The notes below the pieces were generated by a model. It had not been told where the DNA came from. It was given only the letters and a program-made list of their open reading frames with translations, and did no database searches. A program made the translations under genes and the position numbers. Below are positions 525 through 41,824 of a stretch of DNA of 41,984 bases, piece after piece (position 1 is the first letter of the stretch; every line of letters begins with the position of its first letter). The stretch is from Candidatus Gastranaerophilales bacterium (GTDB lineage: Bacteria; Cyanobacteriota; Vampirovibrionia; Gastranaerophilales; Gastranaerophilaceae), in the NCBI GenBank assembly GCA_944322665.1, contig CALUPM010000009.1, positions 1 through 41,984 of the forward strand. The letters run 5' to 3'.

Positions 525-1766
525 ATGAATATAGAGCATATTAAAAAGACAGACCCGCTTGTGGCGGAGCAGATTGAAAAAGAACTTGAAAGACAACAGA
601 ATACAATTGAACTTATTGCAAGCGAAAACTGCACTTCATTAGCCGTTATGGAAGCTGCCGGAAGCGTTCTGACAAACAAATACGCGGAAGGCAAACCGCA
701 CAAAAGATTTTACAACGGCTGCGAACATATTGATGTTATAGAAGAAATTGCACAAAAAAGAGCGTGCGAACTTTTCGGAATGGATCATGCAAACGTTCAG
801 CCTCACAGCGGCGCGCAGGCAAATATGGCAGTGTTTATGTATGCCTTAAAACCCGGAGATAATGTTCTCGGGATGGATTTGTCAAACGGCGGACACCTTT
901 CACACGGGTCACCGGTTAATTTTTCTGGGCTTTATTTTAATGTAAAAAGCTACGGAGTGGACGCCGACGGAAATATTGACTACGACAACGTCCGCAAAGT
1001 TGCACTTGAACATAAGCCGAAACTTATCATCTGCGGGGCTTCCAATTATTCAAAAATTATCGACTTTAAAAAGTTTAGAGAAATTGCAGATGAAGTCGGC
1101 GCATATTTGCTTGCTGATATTGCACATATTGCGGGGCTTGTTGTTGCAGGGCTTCACCCGTCACCGGCGCCGTATGCGGATTTTGTCACAACCACAACGC
1201 ATAAATCCTTAAGAGGCCCCAGAGGCGGAATTACAATGTGCAAAGCAGAGCACGCCGCAGGAATTGACAAGGCAATTTTCCCCGGAATGCAGGGCGGCCC
1301 TCTTGAACATATAATCGCAGCTAAAGCAGTTGCGCTTCTTGAGGCTTCAAAACCGGAATTCAAGGAATACGCCGGACAGATTATCAAAAACGCAAAAGCT
1401 CTGGCACAGGGTTTGCTGGATGAAGGTATGGATATTGTCGGCGGAATGACAGAAAACCACCTCATGACACTTGATTTAAGAAGAACGGGCAAAACCGGCA
1501 AAGATATGGCAAATGTTCTTGAAAGAGTCGGGATTACTGCAAACAAAAACACGGTTCCGGATGATCCGCAAAGTCCGTTTGTCACAAGCGGAATTCGTCT
1601 TGGCACACCTGCTGTTACAACAAGAGGCTTCAAGGAAGATGATATGGTTGAAGTTGCAAAAATTATTGCATCTGCCATATTTTCATCGGATAATGAAATC
1701 GGATTAAACAACTTGAGAGAACGTTCGCTTAAGCTGTGTAAAAAATATCCGCTCTATAATGAATAA
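525..1766 (+). CDS. glyA: Serine hydroxymethyltransferase
   Basis: PLP enzyme that interconverts serine plus tetrahydrofolate with glycine plus 5,10-methylene-THF; it is the main cytosolic source of one-carbon units. The 413 aa match the usual bacterial length (about 415-420). The N-terminal ELIASEN block, the [13 protein letters not shown]-type substrate region and the PLP-lysine motif [14 protein letters not shown] are present, with the Schiff-base lysine at about residue 227. The start is well supported: GAGGTGATC at 511-519, almost a perfect anti-SD complement, precedes the ATG at 525. It has its own promoter at 465-493. The wecA-like gene follows 50 bp downstream on the same strand, so they may be co-transcribed. 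Nothing is missing or odd. Confidence 0.97.
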
Positions 1767-1816
1767 GGCTGAATCAGCTTTAAAATTCAAAATCTGAGCG
1801 GCTTTAAAGGGACAAA

Positions 1817-2854
1817 ATGATTATCAAACTCACAAACGCACATATAATCGGAACAGTAATAGCCTATATTTTCGGGGTATTTCTGGTACCGCTTGTTATT
1901 GCGTTTTCCAAAAAAGAAGGACTTGTAGATCTTCCAAACGAAAGAAAAATCCACAAAATTCCGGTGTCGCGTCTCGGCGGGGTTGCAATCTGGACAAGCA
2001 CAATGCTTACTTTTTTGTGTCTTGTATTTATGAGTTATTATCCGTACGGAAGTTTGCTGTCAGGGATTTTGCTCGGAAGCTCGCTGATGTTTCTTCTGGG
2101 ATTAGTGGATGATGTTTATAATCTTAATGCAAAATTTAAGCTTTTTATACAACTGTCAATTGCGACAATTGTGTATCTTCTCGGGGTCAAAATCCAGTCG
2201 CTGCCGTTTTTCGGCGGGATGGATTTAGGGTTCTGGTCATATCCGATTACACTTTTGTGGATTGTCGGGATTTCTAACGCCGTGAATTTTATTGACGGAG
2301 TAGACGGGCTTGCGGGTTCGGTTGTTACGGTCAACTCACTCACGCTTGCAATCATCGCAATTTCTATGACTCCGTCAAATCCGATTGTGGCTTTGATCGG
2401 TTTTATTCTTGCCGGAGCCATGCTTGCGTTTTTGACTTACAACTTCAACCCTGCAAAAATCTTTATGGGGGACAGCGGAGCGTTATTTTCGGGATTTCTT
2501 CTTGCGACGATTTCGATTGTCGGGGTTATGAAAGCCGCAACACTGACCCTTCTTCTGCCGTTTGTGGTTCTGGCGGTGCCTATTATGGATATTGTTTTCA
2601 GCAGCACAAGAAGAATCTGCAAAGGTAAATCTCCTTTTGTTGCAGATGCCGAACACATTCACCACAAATTATTGCATGCCGGATTTTCACAGAAAAAAAC
2701 CGTTCTAATTCTTACATCAGTCGCAATTATTGCAGGCGCAATCGCGTCTTTAATCATGGGTGAAAACACCATAAAGCATTATGCGGTCTGCATTTTAATC
2801 GTAATTTTTGTAATGTTGTTACTTAATTTCATAAAAGTATTGACAAAAAAATAA
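1817..2854 (+). CDS. WecA/TagO-type undecaprenyl-phosphate GlcNAc-1-phosphate transferase
   Basis: Integral membrane enzyme of the MraY/WecA (PNPT) superfamily that moves a HexNAc-1-phosphate from a UDP-sugar to undecaprenyl phosphate. That step starts O-antigen, teichoic-acid-like or other polymer synthesis. About ten hydrophobic segments are visible. Diagnostic motifs in order: PNERKIHKIPVSRLGG (about 40-55), GLVDDVYNL with the Asp-Asp pair near 98-99, NFIDGVDGLAG, FMGDSGALF and DAEHIHHKLL. The HIHH motif points to the WecA/TagO branch rather than MraY. Start supported by AAAGGGAC about 7 nt upstream of the ATG. The final codons contain the promoter of the next gene. The sugar and the polymer cannot be told from the sequence. 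Confidence 0.9.
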   Translation: MIIKLTNAHIIGTVIAYIFGVFLVPLVIAFSKKEGLVDLPNERKIHKIPVSRLGGVAIWTSTMLTFLCLVFMSYYPYGSLLSGILLGSSLMFLLGLVDDVYNLNAKFKLFIQLSIATIVYLLGVKIQSLPFFGGMDLGFWSYPITLLWIVGISNAVNFIDGVDGLAGSVVTVNSLTLAIIAISMTPSNPIVALIGFILAGAMLAFLTYNFNPAKIFMGDSGALFSGFLLATISIVGVMKAATLTLLLPFVVLAVPIMDIVFSSTRRICKGKSPFVADAEHIHHKLLHAGFSQKKTVLILTSVAIIAGAIASLIMGENTIKHYAVCILIVIFVMLLLNFIKVLTKK

Positions 2855-2868
2855 TTATGTGTTATTAT
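2840..2868 (+). promoter_or_regulatory. sigma70-type promoter inside the end of the wecA-like gene
   Basis: TTGACA at 2840-2845, a 17-bp spacer and TATTAT at 2863-2868. The -35 box overlaps the last codons of the upstream gene (stop at 2852-2854). It would drive the 301-aa repeat protein with a leader of about 155 nt. The leader (about 2876-3032) holds no ORF I can support. Confidence 0.7.
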
Positions 2869-3032
2869 TGCGGATGGATTTAATTACTCAGTTTTAGTCG
2901 AATGTTTTTAGTGGCATTTGCTTGAAATATTTAAGTGTAAATCTGCAATATGTTTTATAGTCTGGAATGAAAAACTTCCGGCATTAGGATATAGTAATTA
3001 CGTGGTGTTAGTTAAGTAAGGGTTTATTAACT

Positions 3033-3938
3033 ATGGATGTAAGTGCAGTAAAGAGTTATGAAAGAAGAAATCCGTTGCAAACGGTCATCAATTCAACCTT
3101 GATAGGTGCAGCCGTCGGCTATGGCGCAAAATACGCAATCCCGCTCCAGCCGCGCGAAAAAAAAGCCATTAACTACAGGGCAATAGTTAATGCAAGCAGA
3201 AAGGACGTCAACCAAAAAAGAGTAGATTCTTTTAAACTTCTGAAAACACGAACCGCCGCTCAGGATGAGTTTGTAAAATTGGTTGATACAAGAGATCAGT
3301 TTAAGTATCCGACTTTAACAAATCTTGCCGAAAGACTCGGCGGCAATGAAACTCCGCTCGGCAAAAAAGTTCTTGCAATCATTAATAATGAAGAAAACAA
3401 GGGTTTGGATCTTGACGGCCTGACAAAGAAACTCGGTCAAGAATCCGCCGATGTAAAACTGTTTACCCAACTTGCAGGCAATGACAGAGAAAGTTTTAAA
3501 AACCTTACGCTCGACAATATCATTGAAAAACTCGGCGGAGAAGATACTCCGATTGCCAAAAAAGTCACTGCAATCTTTAAAATAAACGACAACAAAGCTC
3601 TTGATTTTGACAGCGTAGCAAATTCTTTAGGCAAAAATTCGCCGGAAGTTGCGGAATTGAAGCGTGTTGCAAGATTCAACAACTGTTTCGTCACCGAAAA
3701 CATAGACAGTATCGTTAAAAAACTCGGCGGAAAGAATACAAATGAAGGAAAAGAATTCTTACAGATTATCAAAGATGTTGACAAAGAAGCTTCAAAAGCT
3801 TCAAGAGCCTTCCTGAAAGGTATTCATAAACACTTAAAAGATATCCGCTACACGGCTCCGCTCCTCATCACAGGCGCCGCAGCCGGTTTTGCAGCAGGAT
3901 TCTTGCACAATTATTTTTCACACAAAACCGAAGCTTAG
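3033..3938 (+). CDS. Protein with five ~32-aa helical repeats and a hydrophobic segment at each end
   Basis: No family recognised. The 301 aa have a glycine-rich hydrophobic segment at about 17-36 and another at about 276-292, so both ends may be membrane-embedded or membrane-associated. Between them I see five copies of a unit roughly L-x-L-D-x-L-x-x-K-L-G. Their LG pairs sit at residues 102, 134, 167, 199 and 231, a period of 32-33. Odd copies (LGGNETPLGKKVLAI, LGGEDTPIAKKVTAI, LGGKNTNEGKEF) resemble each other more than the even ones, so the true unit may be a 64-aa pair. The rest is Lys-rich and predicted helical. It has its own promoter (2840-2868); TAAGG lies about 11 nt before the ATG. 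Probably a lineage-specific structural or scaffold protein; function not assigned. Confidence 0.8.
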   Translation: MDVSAVKSYERRNPLQTVINSTLIGAAVGYGAKYAIPLQPREKKAINYRAIVNASRKDVNQKRVDSFKLLKTRTAAQDEFVKLVDTRDQFKYPTLTNLAERLGGNETPLGKKVLAIINNEENKGLDLDGLTKKLGQESADVKLFTQLAGNDRESFKNLTLDNIIEKLGGEDTPIAKKVTAIFKINDNKALDFDSVANSLGKNSPEVAELKRVARFNNCFVTENIDSIVKKLGGKNTNEGKEFLQIIKDVDKEASKASRAFLKGIHKHLKDIRYTAPLLITGAAAGFAAGFLHNYFSHKTEA

Positions 3939-3972
3939 TATAAATAGCAATTAACTAATAGTCAGAAATAAG

Positions 3973-4000
3973 CAGGGCGATCCACCAAACGTCCTGTTTT
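3973..4000 (+). terminator. Probable intrinsic terminator after the repeat protein
   Basis: CAGGGCG (3973-3979) pairs with CGTCCTG (3990-3996), with one G-U, across a 10-nt loop, and is followed by TTTT. Short T-tract, so moderate confidence. Confidence 0.5.
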
Positions 4001-4144
4001 GGCTATTTAGTTTCAGAATAAACCTCCGTTTTTATCTCAATTCTTCAGAAGTAATTCTTAAGAGTGTAGAAAAGGCATCTTTGATACGTTATAATATTTA
4101 CATGCAATTAGGGGTAATATAAATTTCAAAAGGAGAAGGATTAC

Positions 4145-4306
4145 ATGAAAACTGCAACTAAAAAGGATGTGAGAACAGGGAAGGTCAGATCAAAATTTAA
4201 TGACGAATTTGAAAAGTATCTTAAGGCTCAGTGCTTAAAAACAACGTTTAACGGATTGGAATTGGAGACATTCTCCTGGTACAAAAAAGTTTTAGGTCTT
4301 GTATAG
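4145..4306 (+). CDS. Small 53-aa basic protein
   Basis: Reads MKTATKKDVRTG... and ends ...WYKKVLGLV. It is rich in Lys, with no Cys pairs, signal peptide or membrane segment. AGGAG at 4131-4135 gives ideal spacing to the ATG, a TATAAT -10-like box lies at 4090-4095 (the -35 is weak), and a strong intrinsic terminator follows 18 bp after the stop. The complete gene architecture around a very short frame argues that it is real. No function recognised; it stands alone between a plus-strand and a minus-strand gene. Confidence 0.65.
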   Translation: MKTATKKDVRTGKVRSKFNDEFEKYLKAQCLKTTFNGLELETFSWYKKVLGLV

Positions 4307-4323
4307 TGTTTATTGAATAAAAC

Positions 4324-4363
4324 AAAGAGTCCGGTGAAAACTCTTTGCCGGACTTTTTGTTTT
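4324..4363 (+). terminator. Intrinsic terminator after the 53-aa gene
   Basis: AGTCCGG (4328-4334) pairs with CCGGACT (4348-4354) and extends through A-T and G-U pairs. It is followed by TTTTTGTTTT. The flanking A-run means it may also act on the converging M29 peptidase gene. Confidence 0.85.
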
Positions 4364-4391
4364 GTGCGAAATTTTAAAATGTTTTAGAGGT

Positions 4392-5498
4392 TTAAATTAA
4401 AAACTTTCCGTTTTCATAAATTAGAATATCATCGGCAAAGATTTTGCCGTTATTTTTCATGCCTTTAATCATGTCCCAGTGAAGACCTGAAACATTTTTG
4501 CCGCCTGTTTCGGGGTAAGAGGCACCGGCTGCCATGTGGATTGCGCCGCCGATTTTTTCGTCGAACAGAATATTTCCCGTAATATCCTGAATACAGTCAT
4601 TTGTACCGACTGCGATTTCGCCGATACCACGGGAACCTTCATCCGTATCAAGCATGGCGTTTAGAAAATCTTCGCCTTTATCAGCTTTTGCCTTCACAAT
4701 TCTGCCACCTTCAATCCACAGATGAACCCCGTGTGCTTCGTTGCCCCTGTATAGCTGAGGAAAATCAAAATATATTTCGCCGTTAATATCATCTTCTACA
4801 GGAGAGGTGAAAACTTCACCGTCAGGATAGTTATTTAAGCCAGAACAGCTAATCCATTTTCTGCCTTCGACTCCGAAAGTTATGTCTGTCCTGTCGCCGG
4901 TTATGCGGATTTTTTTAACATTGTTCAGATAATTTGCCCATTTGGTTTGTTTTTCGTCCATTTCTTTGAGTTTTGCAACCGGATCGTCGAGGTCAAGGTA
5001 GCAGGCTTTGAAAAGGAAATCCGAATATTCATCAAAGGACATTTTTGCTTCCTGCGCAAGAGCATGCGTCGGAACATCCGCAATAACCCAGCTTGCCTCT
5101 CCGTTAGCAGAACGGGTCAGAAGTTTTTCCGAGAGCGGTTTTGTTGCCGCAGAACGCCTTGCAAGTTTTTTCATATCAGCACGCGCCATATTTTTAGTAT
5201 TCATTGGCCCGCCGATTGATATGAATTTGTCGACTGTTTCATATTCAAGTTTTGTAATCGGGTCGATATAGTCAAGCTGTTCATCTGTTGCGTATTTTAT
5301 GAAAGTATCGGACAAATCTTCAATTGAAGTTCTTACAATCGGGTGCCCGCCGCGCTCAAGAACTCTTTTATAAACAGCTTTTACAAGCTCTTTTGTATAG
5401 ACGCTTGTACCTCTGATTTGGACTAAATCACCTTTTTGAACATTTGTCGAATAATCGACAAGAACTTTTGCATATTTTTCCCAGATTGGATTTTCCAT
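4392..5498 (-). CDS. M29-family aminopeptidase (AmpS/AmpT type)
   Basis: Cytosolic metallo-aminopeptidase that removes N-terminal residues from peptides; family members use a two-metal centre. The 368 aa span both the N-terminal and catalytic parts. Family features seen: NYPDGEVFTSPVED, with the first metal-binding Glu; the Glu of IGEIAVGTN; GGAIHMAAGASYPETGG; and LHWDMI, supplying the His and Asp ligands near the C-terminus. Length is somewhat below the usual roughly 400 aa, but no conserved block is missing. A GGGGGAAATT-like stretch precedes the ATG. It is a single gene, convergent with the 53-aa gene, and upstream of it lies only repeat DNA. Confidence 0.92.
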   Translation of the reverse strand: MENPIWEKYAKVLVDYSTNVQKGDLVQIRGTSVYTKELVKAVYKRVLERGGHPIVRTSIEDLSDTFIKYATDEQLDYIDPITKLEYETVDKFISIGGPMNTKNMARADMKKLARRSAATKPLSEKLLTRSANGEASWVIADVPTHALAQEAKMSFDEYSDFLFKACYLDLDDPVAKLKEMDEKQTKWANYLNNVKKIRITGDRTDITFGVEGRKWISCSGLNNYPDGEVFTSPVEDDINGEIYFDFPQLYRGNEAHGVHLWIEGGRIVKAKADKGEDFLNAMLDTDEGSRGIGEIAVGTNDCIQDITGNILFDEKIGGAIHMAAGASYPETGGKNVSGLHWDMIKGMKNNGKIFADDILIYENGKFLI

Positions 5499-5559
5499 AA
5501 TTTCCCCCGTGCTATATTTATAATAATATCATTTTATCTGAATTCTTTGTATTGGTTAA

Positions 5560-5885
5560 TTTGCTATCCTGCAATGGAATCGCCATAATTTCGTGCAGTC
5601 ATTCCGGAGGCAAAGCCAGAAAAAATACCGTCGGGCTGCTTTATATGTCATTCTGAGGGAGCGCCGCAACCGGAGACTCTCATGACATTCTTAGGAGATC
5701 CTTCGGCTAAAGCCTCAGGATGACGTCCTATTTTTAGCTGCTCTTTCGCTACGCTCAAGATGACATACATTTCTTCACGTCATTCTGAGGACGCTGGTCC
5801 GAAAAATCTCATTGCGTTTTACATGGATCCTTCACAGGTACGACTTACGAATTTCACCCTCTGCCCGTGCAGCTCAGAATGACAG
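5560..5885. repeat. Dispersed CATTCTGAG-type repeat cluster
   Basis: The gap between the peptidase and lpxA holds no gene. It contains several inverted copies of a TGTCATTCTGAGG...CCTCAGGATGACG element with linkers such as GATCCTTCGGCTAAAGCC. Related copies occur near 14,445-14,560, 16,835-17,065, 25,690-25,915 and 29,716-29,760. The paired orientations could fold as hairpins. Confidence 0.8.
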
Positions 5886-5905
5886 TTTTTGCCGGACAAT
5901 AAGTT

Positions 5906-6715
5906 CTATTCTTCGCTTTCAAGCGATTCGTGGCCGGATTTGTGCGATTTCAGAAGAACTCCGCGTTTTGATGTCTTGATAAATTCAATCATCTTTTCAA
6001 TATACGGGTTCATCGGGATTTCAGCCTTAATCTTTTCGATTGCCTGAGTTGTGTTGTATTCTTCGGAAATCAAAAGTTTGAACGCTTCATTAGTGGCAGT
6101 TCTGATTTCCTGAGAAACACCTCTGCGCTTCATAGCAACAACATTAAGTCCGCGCGGAACAGGCGGTCTGCCTTCGCCTTTTGAGTACGGCAGGATATCC
6201 TGACGTGAGGCTGAAAATCCGCTTATAATCGCCATATCACCGATTCTTATATTTTGGTGGAACACGCTCATCCCGCCGACAAATGCGCCAAATCCGACAT
6301 GAACATGTCCGCCTAACGTGACAAGGTTTGCAAGAATTACTTCATCCGCAAGAACACAGTTGTGCGCAACATGTGAGCCAACCATCAAAAGACATTTTTT
6401 GCCGATTCTGGTTGTAAAATCTCCGCAGGCAGCGCCTCTGTGAACGGTTACGTTTTCTTTAATAATTGTTCCGTCGCCGATTACAACTTTTGTCGGCTCG
6501 CCTTTGTAGCCTAAATCCTGAGGCTCCGAACCGATTGTCGCAAACGGGGAAATCGTACAATTTTCACCGATTTCTGCAAATTCTATATGTGCATTTGAAA
6601 TTACTCTTGTGCCGCTTCCGATTTTTACGTTTTCGCCGATTACTACATAAGGCCCGATAATCGCATCTTCCGCAATCTCGGCTGACGGATGAATTATTGC
6701 TGTCTTGTCTATCAT
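5906..6715 (-). CDS. lpxA: UDP-N-acetylglucosamine O-acyltransferase (LpxA)
   Basis: Catalyses the first step of lipid A synthesis, transfer of a 3-hydroxyacyl chain from ACP to UDP-GlcNAc, in the cytosol. The 269 aa carry the left-handed beta-helix hexapeptide pattern (I-G-x-N-x-x-I) through about residue 190, then a C-terminal helical domain. The catalytic His lies in SHVAHNC (His118, equivalent to E. coli His125). IGSEPQDLGYKGEPT and SASRQD-type blocks are also typical. AGAGAGGT precedes the ATG by about 6 nt. It is the last gene of the lpxD-lpxC-fabZ cluster, separated from fabZ by two extra genes. The C-terminal tail is Ser/Glu/His-rich. Confidence 0.95.
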   Translation of the reverse strand: MIDKTAIIHPSAEIAEDAIIGPYVVIGENVKIGSGTRVISNAHIEFAEIGENCTISPFATIGSEPQDLGYKGEPTKVVIGDGTIIKENVTVHRGAACGDFTTRIGKKCLLMVGSHVAHNCVLADEVILANLVTLGGHVHVGFGAFVGGMSVFHQNIRIGDMAIISGFSASRQDILPYSKGEGRPPVPRGLNVVAMKRRGVSQEIRTATNEAFKLLISEEYNTTQAIEKIKAEIPMNPYIEKMIEFIKTSKRGVLLKSHKSGHESLESEE

Positions 6716-6784
6716 AAATTACCTCTCTTTGCTTATTATGTGTAAATTATAGTACAAATCAAAGGTAACAACAATAATTTTATA

Positions 6785-8395
6785 TTATTTTAATATGAAA
6801 TCTTTATGAAAATCCATTGCCATTTCAAACCCTTCTTCAAGAGCATTATTTATGATATCGACAAGTTCCTGATTTTTTGATTGTGCCGCAATCATCGCAA
6901 GTTCCATATAATCACTCTGAGCCTCATCGGTTGATTGAATTTTGTAAGGTTTGCTGCCGTCTTTTTGAATATTTCCTCTTACAATACCTGCAGCATAGTC
7001 CCTTAATGTCTGAAAGTCCTTAGGTTTCCTTTTTAAATTCATATCTGCTAAACTGCCCAGAATATTCCACACGGAAATCTGATATGTATCCGCCATTACG
7101 TTTTGTATGCCGGCGATGTTTGTTTGTTTTGTAAAAATTGTATTTGAAATTTCATCAATACTGCTGGTTTTAAGATAAGGATTGTATATTGTATCAACAT
7201 TTAAGGTTCCTTGAGCAAGTCCCGCTTTTTCTTCAACGAATTTTCTTAATCTTAAAGGAACCGTTCTTATTGTAAAAAATGTTTCATTTTCTTCCTTTAC
7301 TTTTTTCCAGGCGTATTCCATATTTCTTGAAAATATTTTTTTTGCCCACTCGTTTGTACCCCAGAACTGCCTCATTGCATTCGACTGCTCTTTTGAAATT
7401 TCAACAGGATTTGCTTCCGGATTGAAGTTTTTAAAACCTTTCTTTTTCATAAATTCTGAAAGTGCGGACTTTATTCTGTCTGCACCGTAAGCACTCCACG
7501 CTCTTTTCAGAACCCTTGTCATTTCTTCGGATTTTTCCGGATTCTGTCTGTAAAATTCTTTCATTTTTTCAGACATATCATAAATTCTTGACGGATTTTC
7601 CTGATAATATTTTTTCAAGCCTTCCGAGATATGTTCTCTGTGTTCTTTTGAAAGCGGCCCGCGCGGAATGTAAACAGGCTCGCCTGCTTCCTGTGCTTTT
7701 TTATCAAGCGCAAGTCTGCGTTTGTAGGTCATCTCGGCCGTCAATCTTGCATTGTAATCAGGATCCGAAAGTTTTAAAATTTGTCCGTAAGTTTGATTCT
7801 GGCGCGGAATGTTCAACTTTTTCATTGTCCAGTGAATATCTTTTCCGTCTGTGTATTTTTTCAAATCGTTTATGGAAAACCCTTCACCGTAATACAATTT
7901 TAAAAGCTGAAGCGAAAGGTCTTCATTCTTATCAAAACATTCAAGTTTTCCTTTTTTAACATCATCACCGAATGAGTTTTCGCTGAATTTAACTTCGCTG
8001 TCGGAAAGAACGTCTGCAAATTCAGAAAATTTTTGTTTTACTTCATCAAGTGTAGTGCAGCTTTTCAAAGATTCGTAATATTTTTTGTGAATATCAATCA
8101 AAGTTTGCTTCGCTTTATTTCCGCTCTCTAAAATCATGCCTGCCCATTCACGAATATGTTTCGGATAAACTGCGGAATTTTTTTGTGCCAGTTTATCAAG
8201 ATTTGTGATTGTATCCGCAAGATTTAAACTGTATCCGCCCGTGAAACTCAAATAATCCTTTGTTGAAGGAAGTTTGGCAAAGACCATTTGATTGGAATTT
8301 GCTGCTGCCGGTTGAGTCGTTAAATTTTTTTTATTCTGTTTTAAATAAGTGTTATTTTTCGCGAAAATCGCAGGGGTAATGTAATTAATTTGCAT
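6785..8395 (-). CDS. Lineage-type protein with SFTGGY motif and NUMOD3-like helical segment
   Basis: 536 aa, no overall family recognised. The N-terminus (MQINYITPAIF, then a low-complexity Asn/Gln/Ala linker) leads to SFTGGY at residues 50-55, a motif I associate with large uncharacterised proteins of gut Melainabacteria. Residues 247-300 contain PLSKEHREHISEGLKKYYQ and two further short helix repeats (SEKMKEFYRQNPE, TRVLKRAW). These resemble the NUMOD3 DNA-binding repeat found beside homing nucleases. No GIY-YIG or HNH catalytic motif is visible, so this is not a homing endonuclease on the evidence seen. The C-terminal third is helical. AAGGAGATA precedes the ATG at ideal spacing. It sits between fabZ and lpxA, probably in the same transcript. 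Confidence 0.75.
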   Translation of the reverse strand: MQINYITPAIFAKNNTYLKQNKKNLTTQPAAANSNQMVFAKLPSTKDYLSFTGGYSLNLADTITNLDKLAQKNSAVYPKHIREWAGMILESGNKAKQTLIDIHKKYYESLKSCTTLDEVKQKFSEFADVLSDSEVKFSENSFGDDVKKGKLECFDKNEDLSLQLLKLYYGEGFSINDLKKYTDGKDIHWTMKKLNIPRQNQTYGQILKLSDPDYNARLTAEMTYKRRLALDKKAQEAGEPVYIPRGPLSKEHREHISEGLKKYYQENPSRIYDMSEKMKEFYRQNPEKSEEMTRVLKRAWSAYGADRIKSALSEFMKKKGFKNFNPEANPVEISKEQSNAMRQFWGTNEWAKKIFSRNMEYAWKKVKEENETFFTIRTVPLRLRKFVEEKAGLAQGTLNVDTIYNPYLKTSSIDEISNTIFTKQTNIAGIQNVMADTYQISVWNILGSLADMNLKRKPKDFQTLRDYAAGIVRGNIQKDGSKPYKIQSTDEAQSDYMELAMIAAQSKNQELVDIINNALEEGFEMAMDFHKDFILK

Positions 8396-35526: not shown

Positions 35527-36068
35527 GAGGGTTTTTCAACTTTGAAGAAGAATTTTGTTTCCTCAGCATTAGAATTGTAATCCGTACTTGTTGCATAGAT
35601 ATCCAAAATTTGGCGGTAGAAAACTTTCTCTGAAGAACGAATATCCCTGATACGTTCTAAAAGTTCTTGCCAGTAGCCTCCGCCGCCTGCTTGTTTTAAT
35701 AAATCGTCATTCAGTGCAAAACCTTTTTTCATATATTCTTTTAAAATTTGTGTTGCCCAAATTCTAAATTATGTACCACGTAAAGATTTTACACGGTAGC
35801 CAACAGAAATTATAACATCAAGATTGTAGTGCTTGGTATTATAATTTTTTCCATCGGATGCAGTTGTCAAGTAATCCTTGACAACTGCATTTTCCAGAAG
35901 CTCTCCTTCTTCAAAAATATTTTTAATATGCAGGCTTATATTCTGTTTTGTATTTTGAACAGTTCTGCCATTTGATTTTGCGTAAGCCAGACTGTTTCGT
36001 TTTCTATTCTTACATCAATTTTCGTTCGCCCGTCTTGAGTCTGGTAAATTATAATTTCATTTTCCAAG
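35499..36068 (-). pseudogene. Decayed rhuM-family gene
   Basis: RhuM/virulence-associated proteins are about 330 aa, common beside mobile DNA, of unclear function. From TTG 36068 (AAAGGA upstream) the frame gives ENEIIIYQTQDGRTKIDVR and VWLTQNQMAELF, then is lost by a one-base deletion near 35,950. The next frame gives SLHIKNIFEEGELLENAVVK and HYNLDVIISVGYRVKSL, and ends at an in-frame TAA (35771-35769) where the family has RGTQFRIWAT. The same frame then resumes: KKGFALNDDLLKQAGGGGYW and VFYRQILDIYAT, ending after FFKV in unrelated residues. The C-terminal 130 or so residues are missing. Three separate lesions mean it is not functional. Confidence 0.88.
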
Positions 36069-36129
36069 CTATAATCCTTTATTTTATGCAATTATAACAT
36101 ATATTAGCTATGATGACGAATCCTCAATT

Positions 36130-36227: not shown

Positions 36228-39200
36228 TTAAATATTTTCATTTGGCTTAGTTTCATGCCCGAAGATATACCTTAGCCCGGCATTAGCTGCGATACCGTTT
36301 CGTCCGCCGTTACGGATTAGGACTTGCCCGTAGGCCGTAAAGTTATCGTTTATTGTTTGCTGGATACCCAAACCATACTGAACATAAGGTTTCATGCTTA
36401 AATCAGGCAGTGTTGCCATATTGGCTGTAAACTGCGAATCGTTCATAATATTCCAGTTCATTCCTGCTGTTAAGTATGGCTGCCAGCCGTTTCTGGTATT
36501 GAGGGCAAATCTTACGTTCGGAGAAATTTGTAATGCGTGCAGAGGGTCGCCGTTTATGCTTACGCCTGCTGCGTTTGTGTAATCAAATGTGTTTACGAAT
36601 GTATAGCTTAAGAGTAGACTTGGCTGGATGATGAATTTGCCGTCTTTAAATTCAAAATTGTACCCGGTTTTGTTTGCAACACCTGCCATAAACATCGGGA
36701 AATCCTCACTGCCATAGCGTGTGCTTGCGTCTGCTACGCTCGCTCCTGCGTTTACTGTTAAACCTGTGAAGAAGTTGCCTTTATAGTAAGTTCCGGTTAA
36801 GCCGAGGTTGCCGCCATTCTGGTAAATGCTGTTGCCGTTGAATGACTGGTGGCTTCCAAGATATGATACATGGGCACTCAAGACTCCTTCGCCGCCATTC
36901 TTGAATTGATGAATTCCGCTATCTCCGCCGATGAATGTGCCGTATGAGAAACTTCCGACACTCGGGCCGTTTTTCAATCCGACGCTGTCATAAGATGCAA
37001 ACGGTCTTACCCATGTTCCGCCTGAATTTGTTTCGTTTACTTTGTAAGTCACGCTGTCTGCTTCTTCTGTTATAGCATATCTGTTTGCTTGTTTTTGTGC
37101 AAGTCTGACGCTTGCAGGGTTAAGCATTCTCATATCCATATTGTTAAAGGCATTGTTATAAGTATCTAGCATACTTACATATCCGCCTAGTTGAGCTGCA
37201 ACCGGGCCGGTCATTACTGACGGATTTATGTTGTTATAGTTTTCGCTTGAGCCGCGGGAGAAAGTGAAGTTTCCTGTTGATGGATTGTATCCTACTCCGT
37301 ATTTGTAGATTGGAGAATATGCAACTTCCGTTACTGTTGTTCCGATATGGCTTGCAAGAGAATCATTTTCCCCTAACATTACGGATGGTTCTACTGCGTT
37401 AATTTCTACTTTATCTTTTGCTGCGTCACTTAAGAGATTTATTTCACTGACATTCAGGATTGCGTCTTTATTTGCGGTTGCACTGTCTGCCGTAATCTTA
37501 TCCATTGTTTCTTTTGCAAGGTCAGCATCAAGCATAATGTTTGAATTTGAATTAATATTTATTGCGGCAAGATCAATTGTTCCGACTGCGTTATTGGCAA
37601 GATTTAATGTACCGCCGTTAAAATTCAAAGTGTTTTTATTTCCCTGACCGTTTAAGTATTCATCTTTTGTAAAACTTACCGTTCCATTGTTAAGGTTGTA
37701 GTTTACACCGTCAACGTAGGTATTATGGATTGTGTTTGTATTTTCGTTCGTTAATGTCAACTGCTGAACTTTATTATTAAAAGAAATATTTCCGTCACCA
37801 TTCAGTCTAAGTTCGTTTGCGGAATTTGCGGAACTTATTTTGTCATTGACCGTAATCCCTTTGCCGTTTTGAGTGTTTAAGAAGGCTTTTGAAGTTGTAC
37901 CGTCAAGATAAATTACGTCTGTATCCGAGTTATTTCCTAATGAAATATCGTTGTTTGATGCGTTAATATTTACAGCACCGCCGTCATTGACTGTTAAAGC
38001 ACCTTTTCTTTCCGGCACAGGTGCAAAGCCTTTAATGTTTGTGTCGTTAAAAGATAAGGTTTGTCCGTTGTTTATTGCAAATCCTACATTATCTTCACCG
38101 TCAAGAGTATAACCGTTCCCGTTTACTGTTAAAGATTTTCCGCCAAGTTCGCCTGTCCAGCCTGTTTCAGAATTTGTTCCAGTGATTTTAATATCGCTGT
38201 TTGCTGAAAAAACTCTGTCATCTGACAAAGCGACATCCACCCCGCCGACTTTATCTGTCTGGTTTACGGCAACTGTAAACCCGTCAGTTTTCAGGGCTTC
38301 GCCGTTTTCATCCGCAAGGCGGTTCACTGTAAGGTTGTTATCTTTTGCTTTTATTGTGTAAATATAATCGTTTGTCAGAGTATTTATTCCATTTTCGGGT
38401 GTTTTCAATTCCATTCCGTCAGGTGTAATTGAGGCTGTGTATTCGTTTTTGGTTGTATCTGCAAAGTCTGACATAATATTTACGTTTTTGAGATTTAATG
38501 TTCCTGTTGCGGTAGTTGCTTTGATTGTGTCAAAAATCTGATCAGAACTTGCAAGGTTCATGTCTATTTTAAGGTTTGCGTTGTTAGAAGTTAAACTGTT
38601 GAGGTTCATTCCGCCTACATTATTATTTGCTAAATCAAGCAGGGAGCCTTCTTCTAGGGTTAAGTCAGTTCTGTCAAGGTAATTGTCTTTTGTTAAAGCA
38701 AGTGTTCCCGCTTTCAAATTTACCGCAAGTGCAGAATTTTCATCAGGCGATACAAAATTATCCACAATTATTTTTCCGACCGATGATAGATTTTCGTATA
38801 AATCATTGACAGAAGAATTATTGATATCTATAACTGAATTTTTACCAGTGATACCGCCATCAAAAGAAATGGTTTTACCTTCATTTGCATTCAGATAAAG
38901 TTTGTTATTTTCAAGGTAAATATCAGCACCTTTATCAGCTTTATTGCCGCTGAATTTTACATCTTTGTTTAGGGCTGTTATACGTGTACCCATTTCAACC
39001 CCTAACTCATCTAAAACGATTACCAGGTCTGCTAAATCACCATTATAACCAGTATAAACAGCACCGCCTTCTTTGGCACTGTTATTAGTAAAGTTTGTAT
39101 CTACTATTCTGACAGGTGCACTGTTTGCATAAATTGCTCCACCTTTTTCCGCAGAGGAATTTCCATTGAATGTTGAATCGGCTATAGTGGTTTGTGCCAG

Positions 39201-41348
39201 CGTAAAACCACCTGAAGGCATCTCCTGATTCTCAGGATTAGTGTATTTAAAATCAGGCTGTAAATTTATTGCTCCACCGTTCGCTTCAGTAGTATTATTT
39301 TCAAAAGAAGTTCTTTTTATGTTTAAGTTCCCGCTGTCACGATAGATAGCCCCACCCTGCTTTGCTGTGTTGTTTATAAAATCTGTGTCTGTTATATTTA
39401 ATGTTTGACCGCTAAAAGCTACAGCACCACCGTTTCCTGTTGTTGAATTTGAGGTGAATGTTGAATTCGTAATATTTGCATTATTTCCGTTATAAAAAGC
39501 TACAGCTCCGCCGCTTGCACCGGAAGCGTTACCTTCAAATACTGAATTTGCTATTGTTATATTATCATTAGAAAATCCAAAAATTGCACCACCGTCGCCA
39601 AAATAACCGTTGTACTCTTCCTGAATAGTATTTTCAGAATAATATTTTGCACTATTATTTTTAAATACAGAATCATTTACTGTAATATTTCCATTCCAGG
39701 CAGCGATGGCACCGCCCTCAGCAGCAGCTTGATTTCCTGCGAATTCACTTCCCGTGATTTTTACATCACCATTGTTATCTATTGCTCCGCCGCTGCCATC
39801 ATAATCATTTTCATAATATTTATCGGGATCTTCTGCTGATTTATATGAGTATTCTTTTTTTGCTGTATTATTATGAAATTTACTGTTATTAACAGTTAAT
39901 ATGCCATTTCCGGAAACAGCACCGCCAAATACGCTTTCATTACTTTCAAAAGTAGAATTTTCTATTAATAAATTATCTCCTGTGTTGTATATAGCACCAC
40001 CTGAACCAAGATATGATTCCGTAGTCCCCGCTTCGTTTGCCTGAACCCTTTTTACTAATGCACTGTTATCGGTAAATATTGAATTTTTTACAGTTAAATT
40101 ATCTCCTTCATGGTATATCGCTCCGCCGGTGCCAACTTCACTTGTGTAATCCTGAACAATACCTCCATCTGCTTTGTTTCCGGTAAACGTTGAATTTGTA
40201 ACGTTTACAGCGTCACTCATGCTGTATATAGCACCGCCGTTCCCCGTTGTTGAGTTGGAAGTGAAGGTTGAATTTGTAATATTTGCAATGGTACTCCATG
40301 CACTTATGGCGCCGCCGCCTTCGCCTCCGGCAATATTTCCTTCAAACAAAGAATCTCCCACAGTTAAATGCCCGGATCCTGCTATTGAAAGCGCACCACC
40401 TATACCATCAATGCAACTCTCGTCTACATATTCAACTTCACCCTGCTCATTTAAACGGAAATAGCCCTCAACTGTTTCAGATTTGGCCGTATTATTTATG
40501 AAGTTTGAATTTTTTATTGTTACGTTCCCTGAGTCACTATAGATTGCACCGCCTGAGTAAGCAGCTAAGTTTCCGCTAAATGTAGAGTTCTCAACTAGCA
40601 AATCCCCGTTGTTATAAATAGCACCTCCCAGTCCGTTATACCAGGAGATGTCTTTTGTGTATTCTTCTCCATTATGTGTATATGTTGTTTTACCACTTAT
40701 CAACGAATTAGACTTATTATTTGAAAATTCGCTGTTTTTTATAACAGCAGTTCCTCTATTAGCTATTGCTCCGCCGGATTCAGCAGTATTATTTTCAAAC
40801 GAATTATTTTCTATATTAATATCTGCGTTTTCATTATAAATCGCTCCACCGTAGCCACCACTATTACTTGTAGAAATAGTAATAATGTTATCGTCAGCAG
40901 AACTATAAGTAAAACCTTGAACTTCATGTGAAGCATTATTTCCGGTAAAAGTACTGGCCTTTATTACATTTATTGTACCTTCATTGTATATTGCTCCGCC
41001 GTCTGCAGAATTATTATTCTCAAATGTTGAATTTGTTATGCTGAGTTCGGCTCCTTTGTCGCCTGCGTTATAAATTGCTCCGCCTTTTCCTTCGCTTCGT
41101 GGGTAAGTTTCTGTTCCAGTTACTGTTAAAGCGGAATTATCTTTGAATACAGCGTTGTCTATTGTCAATTTTCCTGTATTATAAACAGCCCCGCCGGCAC
41201 CTTCATATTGGATATTACTATATGTTTTATCCTGAATATTAATGGTTTCACCATCTTTAACAATTGTTCTATCTGCCGCAAACACAAAATTTGTAGCAGC
41301 CAGCACGGCAGCCGCCAACAAGGATGTCAAAAAGCTATTCTTCTTCAT
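36228..41348 (-). CDS. Pmp-like autotransporter adhesin with C-terminal beta-barrel
   Basis: Type V secreted surface protein. 1,706 aa from the ATG at 41348 (GGAG 6 nt upstream; an in-frame TTG 4 codons earlier overlaps the SD). A signal peptide of about 24 residues ends NFVFA. Residues about 30-780 carry roughly 22 GGA(I/V/L) motifs alternating with NSxFxxN units, the pattern of chlamydial Pmp proteins, predicting a beta-helix stalk. Residues about 780-1430 are a second Asn/Leu-rich passenger region. From about 1440 (GGTWVRPFASYDSVG) to the end is an autotransporter barrel. The last strand GLRYIF is followed by a 10-residue tail instead of ending at Phe. Divergent from an XRE regulator. Confidence 0.93.
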   Translation of the reverse strand: MKKNSFLTSLLAAAVLAATNFVFAADRTIVKDGETINIQDKTYSNIQYEGAGGAVYNTGKLTIDNAVFKDNSALTVTGTETYPRSEGKGGAIYNAGDKGAELSITNSTFENNNSADGGAIYNEGTINVIKASTFTGNNASHEVQGFTYSSADDNIITISTSNSGGYGGAIYNENADINIENNSFENNTAESGGAIANRGTAVIKNSEFSNNKSNSLISGKTTYTHNGEEYTKDISWYNGLGGAIYNNGDLLVENSTFSGNLAAYSGGAIYSDSGNVTIKNSNFINNTAKSETVEGYFRLNEQGEVEYVDESCIDGIGGALSIAGSGHLTVGDSLFEGNIAGGEGGGAISAWSTIANITNSTFTSNSTTGNGGAIYSMSDAVNVTNSTFTGNKADGGIVQDYTSEVGTGGAIYHEGDNLTVKNSIFTDNSALVKRVQANEAGTTESYLGSGGAIYNTGDNLLIENSTFESNESVFGGAVSGNGILTVNNSKFHNNTAKKEYSYKSAEDPDKYYENDYDGSGGAIDNNGDVKITGSEFAGNQAAAEGGAIAAWNGNITVNDSVFKNNSAKYYSENTIQEEYNGYFGDGGAIFGFSNDNITIANSVFEGNASGASGGAVAFYNGNNANITNSTFTSNSTTGNGGAVAFSGQTLNITDTDFINNTAKQGGAIYRDSGNLNIKRTSFENNTTEANGGAINLQPDFKYTNPENQEMPSGGFTLAQTTIADSTFNGNSSAEKGGAIYANSAPVRIVDTNFTNNSAKEGGAVYTGYNGDLADLVIVLDELGVEMGTRITALNKDVKFSGNKADKGADIYLENNKLYLNANEGKTISFDGGITGKNSVIDINNSSVNDLYENLSSVGKIIVDNFVSPDENSALAVNLKAGTLALTKDNYLDRTDLTLEEGSLLDLANNNVGGMNLNSLTSNNANLKIDMNLASSDQIFDTIKATTATGTLNLKNVNIMSDFADTTKNEYTASITPDGMELKTPENGINTLTNDYIYTIKAKDNNLTVNRLADENGEALKTDGFTVAVNQTDKVGGVDVALSDDRVFSANSDIKITGTNSETGWTGELGGKSLTVNGNGYTLDGEDNVGFAINNGQTLSFNDTNIKGFAPVPERKGALTVNDGGAVNINASNNDISLGNNSDTDVIYLDGTTSKAFLNTQNGKGITVNDKISSANSANELRLNGDGNISFNNKVQQLTLTNENTNTIHNTYVDGVNYNLNNGTVSFTKDEYLNGQGNKNTLNFNGGTLNLANNAVGTIDLAAININSNSNIMLDADLAKETMDKITADSATANKDAILNVSEINLLSDAAKDKVEINAVEPSVMLGENDSLASHIGTTVTEVAYSPIYKYGVGYNPSTGNFTFSRGSSENYNNINPSVMTGPVAAQLGGYVSMLDTYNNAFNNMDMRMLNPASVRLAQKQANRYAITEEADSVTYKVNETNSGGTWVRPFASYDSVGLKNGPSVGSFSYGTFIGGDSGIHQFKNGGEGVLSAHVSYLGSHQSFNGNSIYQNGGNLGLTGTYYKGNFFTGLTVNAGASVADASTRYGSEDFPMFMAGVANKTGYNFEFKDGKFIIQPSLLLSYTFVNTFDYTNAAGVSINGDPLHALQISPNVRFALNTRNGWQPYLTAGMNWNIMNDSQFTANMATLPDLSMKPYVQYGLGIQQTINDNFTAYGQVLIRNGGRNGIAANAGLRYIFGHETKPNENI

Positions 41349-41435
41349 TCTCTTCTCCAAATTCTTTATTTAGAACATATTTTTCTATAAATTACCATAT
41401 TTAAAATAGTATTACAAGATTAAAAACAGAAAAAT

Positions 41436-41449
41436 CATCTATTTAGATG
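41436..41449. promoter_or_regulatory. Candidate operator palindrome between autotransporter and XRE gene
   Basis: CATCTATTTAGATG: perfect 6-bp arms with a 2-bp centre in the 158-bp divergent intergenic region. A TATACT -10-like box for the XRE gene is at 41477-41482. The rest of the gap is AT-rich without other clear signals. Confidence 0.4.
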
Positions 41450-41506
41450 TCTTTAATACGGTTTATAAGTTAGAAATATACTATTATCCTCAAAAAGAAG
41501 GTAGCT

Positions 41507-41824
41507 ATGAACATTAAAAAAGATTTTGGGCAAAGAATAAAAGAATTACGAAACAAAAAGGGGATAACACAATATCAGCTTGCTGAAATGACTGGAATTG
41601 ATCCAAAACACATGAGTCACATTGAAACAGGAAGAAGTTTCCCAAAAGCAGATTTGATAGAAAAATTTGCCATTGCACTAGATATTGATTATACAGAATT
41701 ATTTAAAACACAGCACTTGGATAACCGTAAAATATTACTTGAAAAACTCGGAAGTTATTTAGAGAATGCTTCTGATACTGATTTGCAGGTGATTTATAAA
41801 CTTATTTCCGGATATTTTAATTAA
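41507..41824 (+). CDS. Small XRE-family transcriptional regulator
   Basis: 105 aa. An N-terminal Cro/C1-type helix-turn-helix (about 8-62: FGQRIKELRNKKGITQYQLA, MTGIDPKHMSHIETGRSFP) and a short helical C-terminal part that may dimerise. AAGG lies 5 nt before the ATG. Divergent from the autotransporter, which is the obvious candidate target besides its own promoter (inference). Confidence 0.9.
   Translation: MNIKKDFGQRIKELRNKKGITQYQLAEMTGIDPKHMSHIETGRSFPKADLIEKFAIALDIDYTELFKTQHLDNRKILLEKLGSYLENASDTDLQVIYKLISGYFN

Follow-up and report, generated by a model that had tools for sequence, protein, structure and literature searches.

The best-known means by which gut bacteria vary their surface are invertible promoters and slipped repeats. 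Another arrangement, in which a regulator is kept in its locus while the surface content varies among strains, is found in the FCT region of Streptococcus pyogenes, whose regulators RofA and Nra are not known to be XRE proteins. According to PMC7900414, this region has the standalone regulator RofA/Nra between conserved genes, a heterogeneous surface-protein content and the character of a recombination hotspot. The locus described here resembles it in the kept regulator and differs from it in two ways: the FCT cargo consists of sortase-built pili and matrix-binding proteins, and the FCT region is one locus, as against dozens of private regulator-gene pairs here.

Two further systems resemble the two genes of our locus. 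The autotransporter encoded in the window, by which we mean the whole stretch of 41,984 nucleotides that was analysed, shares with the chlamydial Pmp proteins the GGA(I/L/V) and FxxN repeats, the family PF02415 and an autotransporter barrel; no Pmp middle-domain family was found in it, and phylum, neighbourhood and XRE slot differ. The repressor RstR of the CTX phage acts on a divergent promoter. The XRE protein of the window is likewise a small HTH protein, and its best NCBIfam match is the RstR repressor subfamily NF041951, aligned over residues 7-101. This match scores 48.8 bits, below the cut-off of 80, and a further difference is that the divergent gene here is a surface gene.

For the lineage itself, type IV pilus genes are listed for a Melainabacterium of the termite gut in PMC5877343. 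Term searches gave no mention of pili, pilin, autotransporter or adhesin in the main text of PMC3787301, and none of six terms in PMC4040986. We found no literature linking Gastranaerophilales with an autotransporter or with XRE, and none on autotransporter or prepilin genes divergent from an XRE gene, two results that do not establish absence from print.

We propose that a conserved anchor is made up of the XRE gene together with its two-way promoter, and that the divergent position is a slot for exchangeable surface-related genes, the autotransporter being one filling. By binding three candidate half-sites, O1 to O3 (Table 1), the XRE protein would control the slot gene and itself. On the comparisons given below we consider this proposal probable.

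Table 1. Features of the autotransporter-XRE locus, in positions of the window
Feature	Position	Strand	Remarks
Pmp-repeat-like autotransporter, cargo in the window genome	36228-41348	minus	1706 aa
Autotransporter beta-barrel domain	36231-37163	minus	TIGR01414 on the last 311 aa
Constant stalk and barrel	36228-38979	minus	85-88% DNA identity to L002/L004
Variable passenger (GGA[ILV]/FxxN repeats)	38980-41182	minus	alignment to L002/L004 DNA limited to patches of 117-287 bp
Constant 5' end of the autotransporter gene	41183-41348	minus	84.5% / 86% DNA identity to L004 / L002
Shared two-way promoter region	41349-41506		158 bp
Possible cargo -10	41374-41379	minus	TATGTT on minus strand, inside the ACATA block; by eye
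O1, candidate half-site	41394-41400	minus	ACCATAT on plus strand, AATATGGT-like on minus strand
O2, candidate half-site	41415-41421	minus	consensus CAATATT, window CAAGATT (one change)
Palindrome CATCTATTTAGATG (CATCTA-TT-TAGATG)	41436-41449		in the spacer between blocks
O3, candidate half-site ACGGTTTA	41458-41465	plus	inverted relative to O1/O2
Possible XRE promoter	41460-41465 and 41482-41487	plus	-35 GGTTTA, 16 nt, then TATTAT; by eye
XRE (HTH_19/HTH_3) regulator, proposed module anchor	41507-41824	plus	105 aa

The mosaic autotransporter and its relatives

The first-pass annotation had described a giant adhesin with about 22 GGA(I/V/L) motifs, NSxFxxN units and a typical barrel, in a probable gut cyanobacterial relative, and much of this description holds. 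Taking the start at ATG 41348 (the program's list of open reading frames starts at TTG 41360), the protein has 23 GGA[IVL] motifs against 0.34 expected from shuffles, 22 of them within residues 52-764, the passenger, and 11 NSxFxxN motifs against 0.13. It matches Chlam_PMP, PF02415, in Pfam (E 4.6e-38, 125.5 bits), in line with a Pmp-repeat-like passenger, and TIGR01376 in NCBIfam (E 1.9e-8). The C-terminal barrel of a type V autotransporter was recovered when the last 311 residues were scanned alone (TIGR01414 in NCBIfam, E 2.9e-16, 59.5 bits, cut-off 16); the scan of the full-length protein does not list this family at E<=0.1. TIGR01414 is matched by 19 of 22 aligned sequences and PF03797 by 3 of the 22, the window protein being among those that do not match the latter. 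The family that we take to be the Pmp middle domain is not among the Pfam families found at E<=0.1. The word "giant" suits the length of the protein in a relative sense, since open frames of homologues reach 4035 aa. A place among gut Melainabacteria agrees with the names attached to the 29 XRE orthologues: Gastranaerophilales in 19, Scatousia in one, cyanobacteria in two and "bacterium" only in seven.

The N-terminus, MKKNSFLTSLLAAAVLAATNFVFA, looks like a signal peptide by eye. A single-sequence model of passenger residues 25-420 gives a solenoid of short strands (pLDDT 63, pTM 0.70), with which Foldseek found no match at E<=0.001; its top matches are mostly what we take to be beta-helix proteins. 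The AlphaFold model of the barrel, made from three near-identical sequences, has a pLDDT of 27, and searches of solved structures with the autotransporter gave no useful match. Slipped-repeat phase variation of the gene was rejected, as a search for tandem arrays found none in it.

Judged by its DNA alignments, the autotransporter gene is a mosaic. The comparison is with L002 and L004, the two XRE orthologue loci that carry this autotransporter. Its 5' end and its stalk and barrel are constant, and the identity of the 5' end runs on through the promoter and the XRE gene. Between them lies the variable passenger (Table 1), which has degenerate internal repeats. The final 1.1 kb (36228-37341) are 91% identical to the autotransporter of another genome, G004, which is otherwise different. 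Homologues are present in 31 of the 59 genomes searched (own included), and match mainly the C-terminal part.

Several smaller observations concern these genes and their surroundings. The autotransporter frames are interrupted in L002 (about 3568-7842) and in L004 (2881-7854), possibly by assembly error. A second autotransporter reaches a contig edge (G000:C66:1-210), and its last 70 aa are 91% identical to the barrel end of the window. In L239 (G029:C31), an XRE paralogue (43%) at 1075-1422 is divergent from an autotransporter at 1599-5300 with 18 GGA[IVL] motifs. Adjoining the autotransporter at 35537-36104 of the window is a RhuM-family gene, apparently interrupted, whose DNA is 88.6% identical to a portion of the RhuM gene of L006, where the frame is open.

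Conserved blocks in the shared promoter

The divergent XRE gene across a 158-bp gap had been correctly recognized. Between the window and L006, 136 of 146 positions are identical in the promoter, 248 of 318 in the XRE gene and 40 of 106 on the cargo side. Together with the promoter of the window we compared 28 orthologous ones, 29 in all, of which 23 form a non-redundant set after six near-copies were dropped.

The perfect palindrome that the first-pass annotation had singled out is present and has its single exact copy in the 102-contig assembly here. It is of an ordinary kind, and weak as a signal: perfect 6-2-6 palindromes number 22 in the window, or roughly one in every 1.9 kb. Its conservation, on which the earlier reading depended, is not found: it is exact in 5 of the 29 promoters, the window's included, and its mean top-base frequency in the non-redundant set is 0.62, with 0.57 for the spacer at 41469-41480, 0.88 for 41393-41427 and 0.86 for 41450-41468. 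On these grounds the palindrome was rejected as the operator.

The sequences that are kept lie to either side of it. O1 is exact in 28 of the 29 promoters (22 of the 23 non-redundant ones, against 0.89 expected), the consensus of O2 in 24 (19 of 23, against 1.88 expected) and O3 also in 24 (18 of 23, against 0.06 expected); a fourth block, ACATA, is found in all 29 and in 23 of 23, against 8.6 expected. Spacing is nearly constant. Counting near variants of O2, the distance from O1 to O2 is 21 bp in 28 of 28 promoters, and that from O2 to O3 is 42-43 bp in 29 of 29 when near variants of both blocks are included. The blocks and their spacing are kept regardless of cargo type. O1 and O2 have the same orientation and both resemble O3 read on the opposite strand, and we propose for this reason that the three are half-sites for the XRE protein. 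Two possible promoters were placed by eye, and O1 overlaps the -35 region of the one for the cargo, O3 the -35 of the one for the XRE gene. A consensus promoter scan gave 3 sites, against 3.9 expected, and the two promoters placed by eye are not among them.

The XRE protein would probably bind all three predicted half-sites, with O1 and O2 close to the cargo promoter, separated by two helical turns, and O3 over its own -35. Most likely it acts as its own repressor and also controls the slot gene, whether by repression or by activation being indistinguishable by sequence. Each slot would then behave as its own switch, because the same regulator would control the slot gene and itself, and switching could conceivably take place cell by cell. 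This binding and control, and with them the switching and a gain in surface variation, are inferred.

Across the genome of the window, O3 has one exact copy, the window's own, and 27 copies with one mismatch, a total of 28 against 15 for the control; no regulon is therefore claimed. The intergenic sequences of XRE paralogues in the same genome have no obvious common block by eye, and an operator shared among these paralogues was set aside.

The regulator and its distribution

The XRE protein matches HTH_19 (E 2.3e-13, 50.3 bits, cut-off 30.2) and HTH_3 (47.5 bits, cut-off 23) in Pfam. Among the 80 loci kept, 29 are orthologues with 55-82% identity; L031, a paralogue at 41%, was left out of the orthologue counts. 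The group is sparse: at E<=1e-33 it is present in 30 of 383 genomes of the family (own included), and of 14 genomes of the window's genus only the own genome has it. Among 50 distant relatives (L032-L081, nearly all from Firmicutes by record title), 40 have a divergent neighbour, and the prepilin N-terminal pattern matched none of the 50 loci. By eye, several of these neighbours resemble genes for secreted proteins, lipoproteins or zinc-ribbon proteins, and many lie 130-165 bp away. A divergent neighbour is common, then, for XRE genes, which speaks against our proposal, as does the sparseness of the orthologue group.

Other explanations were weighed. The XRE protein could be a repressor of phage or element type, like RstR, with the slot gene as accessory cargo, as in lysogenic conversion. 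Its best NCBIfam match would agree with this, as would its patchy distribution and the genes that Pfam tests identified in the flanks: a serine recombinase and a ParB/methylase in L004, an Mrr endonuclease in L003 and RhuM in L006. We consider it unlikely, however, given that the RstR score lies below its cut-off, that seven loci (L012, L016, L019, L020, L022, L024 and L030) share by eye a housekeeping-like flank, and that no phage structural genes were noticed in the lists of open reading frames. Somewhat less probable is a guard or toxin-antitoxin-like pair in which the XRE protein holds down a costly gene and has no role in variation. Against it, the cargo changes while the XRE gene stays, and the proteins encoded in the slot are of very different families and sizes. 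For it speak the one-to-one divergent pairing, a weak similarity to antitoxin HTH models, each below its cut-off, and a weak similarity to the restriction controller proteins C.AhdI and C.BclI.

Proposed exchange of the divergent gene

Our proposal of a regulator anchor with exchangeable cargo draws on what lies across the promoter in other genomes. In the 27 XRE orthologues with a readable divergent gene, this gene is prepilin-like in 14, glycosyltransferase-like in 8, a secreted protein or lipoprotein in 3 and this autotransporter in 2, all labels that rest mostly on N-terminal sequence. L010, on a contig that starts inside the promoter, and L030, with an unreadable cargo, were left out of the count and of the tree, and L083 and L245, which have the same length (18360) as the L002 contig and are apparently this contig, were counted once with it. 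The glycosyltransferase label was confirmed by Pfam in three of three tested among the eight, with L011 barely above the cut-off; a glycosyltransferase, though, is no surface protein itself. For the 14 prepilin-like cargoes the label is weak. It was given by N-terminal pattern and checked by profile in three: the cargo of L015 scores 19.7 bits against PF07963, below the cut-off of 21.2, and those of L012 and L029 have only a glycine-rich domain in Pfam and no match to the prepilin motif families. Pfam finds WG repeats in the cargo of L006, and it matched no family to that of L008. By eye, a lipoprotein/zinc-ribbon cargo operon lies to the left of the XRE gene in L006, L008 and L009; in each of the three it lacks different genes, and the first gene facing the promoter in L008 differs from that in L006 and L009.

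Different cargo is found beside an unchanged regulator. The XRE proteins of L002, L003 and L004 are identical, and they face the autotransporter in L002 and L004 and a glycosyltransferase in L003. On the left of the cargo, L004 and L006 have 2.2 kb in common at 92.5% identity; on the right they are 90% identical across promoter and XRE gene, and their cargoes are unrelated. Their promoters agree at 143 of 146 positions, and homology stops at most about 20 bp upstream of the two start codons, at -159 and -162. Like the FCT region, this pair combines the same flanks, a different surface cargo and a kept regulator, which is a test of working alike and not of descent. Beside XRE genes that are 95-96% alike, the promoters are 75% alike in L003 and L004 and in L005 and L006, and promoter and cargo may therefore move together. 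Placed on the tree of XRE proteins, the cargo labels require 7 changes, with a minimum of 3 and a mean of 12.3 after shuffling, and so are more clustered than by chance; cargo is therefore also inherited, and exchange is not rampant.

Least probable of all, and largely refuted, is the original suggestion that the XRE gene exists to control the autotransporter through the palindrome: the two divergent genes have their 158-bp region in common, are kept together in L002 and L004 and have a paralogous counterpart in G029, but 25 of the 27 readable orthologues face another gene, an identical XRE protein stands beside a glycosyltransferase gene in L003, few promoters have the exact palindrome, and outside the L002 lineage a divergent XRE gene accompanies 1 of 15 autotransporter homologues with a readable 5' flank (the G029 pair). 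These 15 are what is left of 20 stretches once L228, L230, L231 and L242, with an unreadable 5' flank, and L245, of the L002 lineage, are subtracted. That the intergenic region is better conserved than the sequence on either side fits control of the divergent gene by the XRE protein, which is not tied to the autotransporter; the "dedicated control" of the first-pass annotation is better read as placing any gene in the slot under the XRE promoter.

The pairing of XRE and prepilin genes was also counted genome by genome, taking as a pair an HTH_3 match divergent from a prepilin match within 450 bp (profile matches). The counts cover six genomes, and pairs of G053 were left out. In four genomes of the window's genus, 82 of 148 HTH_3 matches are paired in this way (G000, 22 of 40; G001, 40 of 59; G012, 19 of 40; G005, 1 of 9), with 0.02-1.3 pairs expected per genome assuming 1800 genes, and these four genomes have no HTH_3-prepilin pair in any other orientation. 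G001, of about 2 Mb, thus has 40. Two genomes of other genera gave 4 of 21 (G019) and 0 of 14 (G065). Divergent pairs are in excess in three of the four genomes of the genus, and the rich set is not general. The prepilin matches used, out of those found, were 41 of 41 in G000 (10 of them below the Pfam cut-off), 79 of 83 in G001, 8 of 10 in G005, 63 of 70 in G012, 54 of 55 in G019 and 11 of 11 in G065. The six slot proteins of G000 that were tested bear the prepilin motif, all scoring above the TIGR02532 cut-off of 16.3; all six also match PF07963, one of them above the cut-off. The own loci L127, L129, L133, L134 and L136 had no BLAST match and stand outside the cargo tally, and the pair counts of G000, G019 and G065 use profile matches.

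More tentatively, and as a possibility on which we would not yet rely, some gut Melainabacteria may have private one-gene switches by the dozen in a single genome, each made of an XRE gene and, divergent from it, a surface gene that can be interchanged. They would generate combinatorial surface variation with neither DNA inversion nor slipping repeats, because species would trade cargo and retain regulator and promoter. At E<=0.01 there are 135 prepilin-motif matches in G053 (2.3 Mb), against 11 in G065. A regulator anchor with exchangeable cargo is possibly an undescribed route of cell-surface variation. If this reading is right, neighbouring cells of one strain are predicted to differ in the pilins and adhesins that they display, and many surface genes of unknown function in a mostly uncultured gut lineage would acquire an annotation rule.
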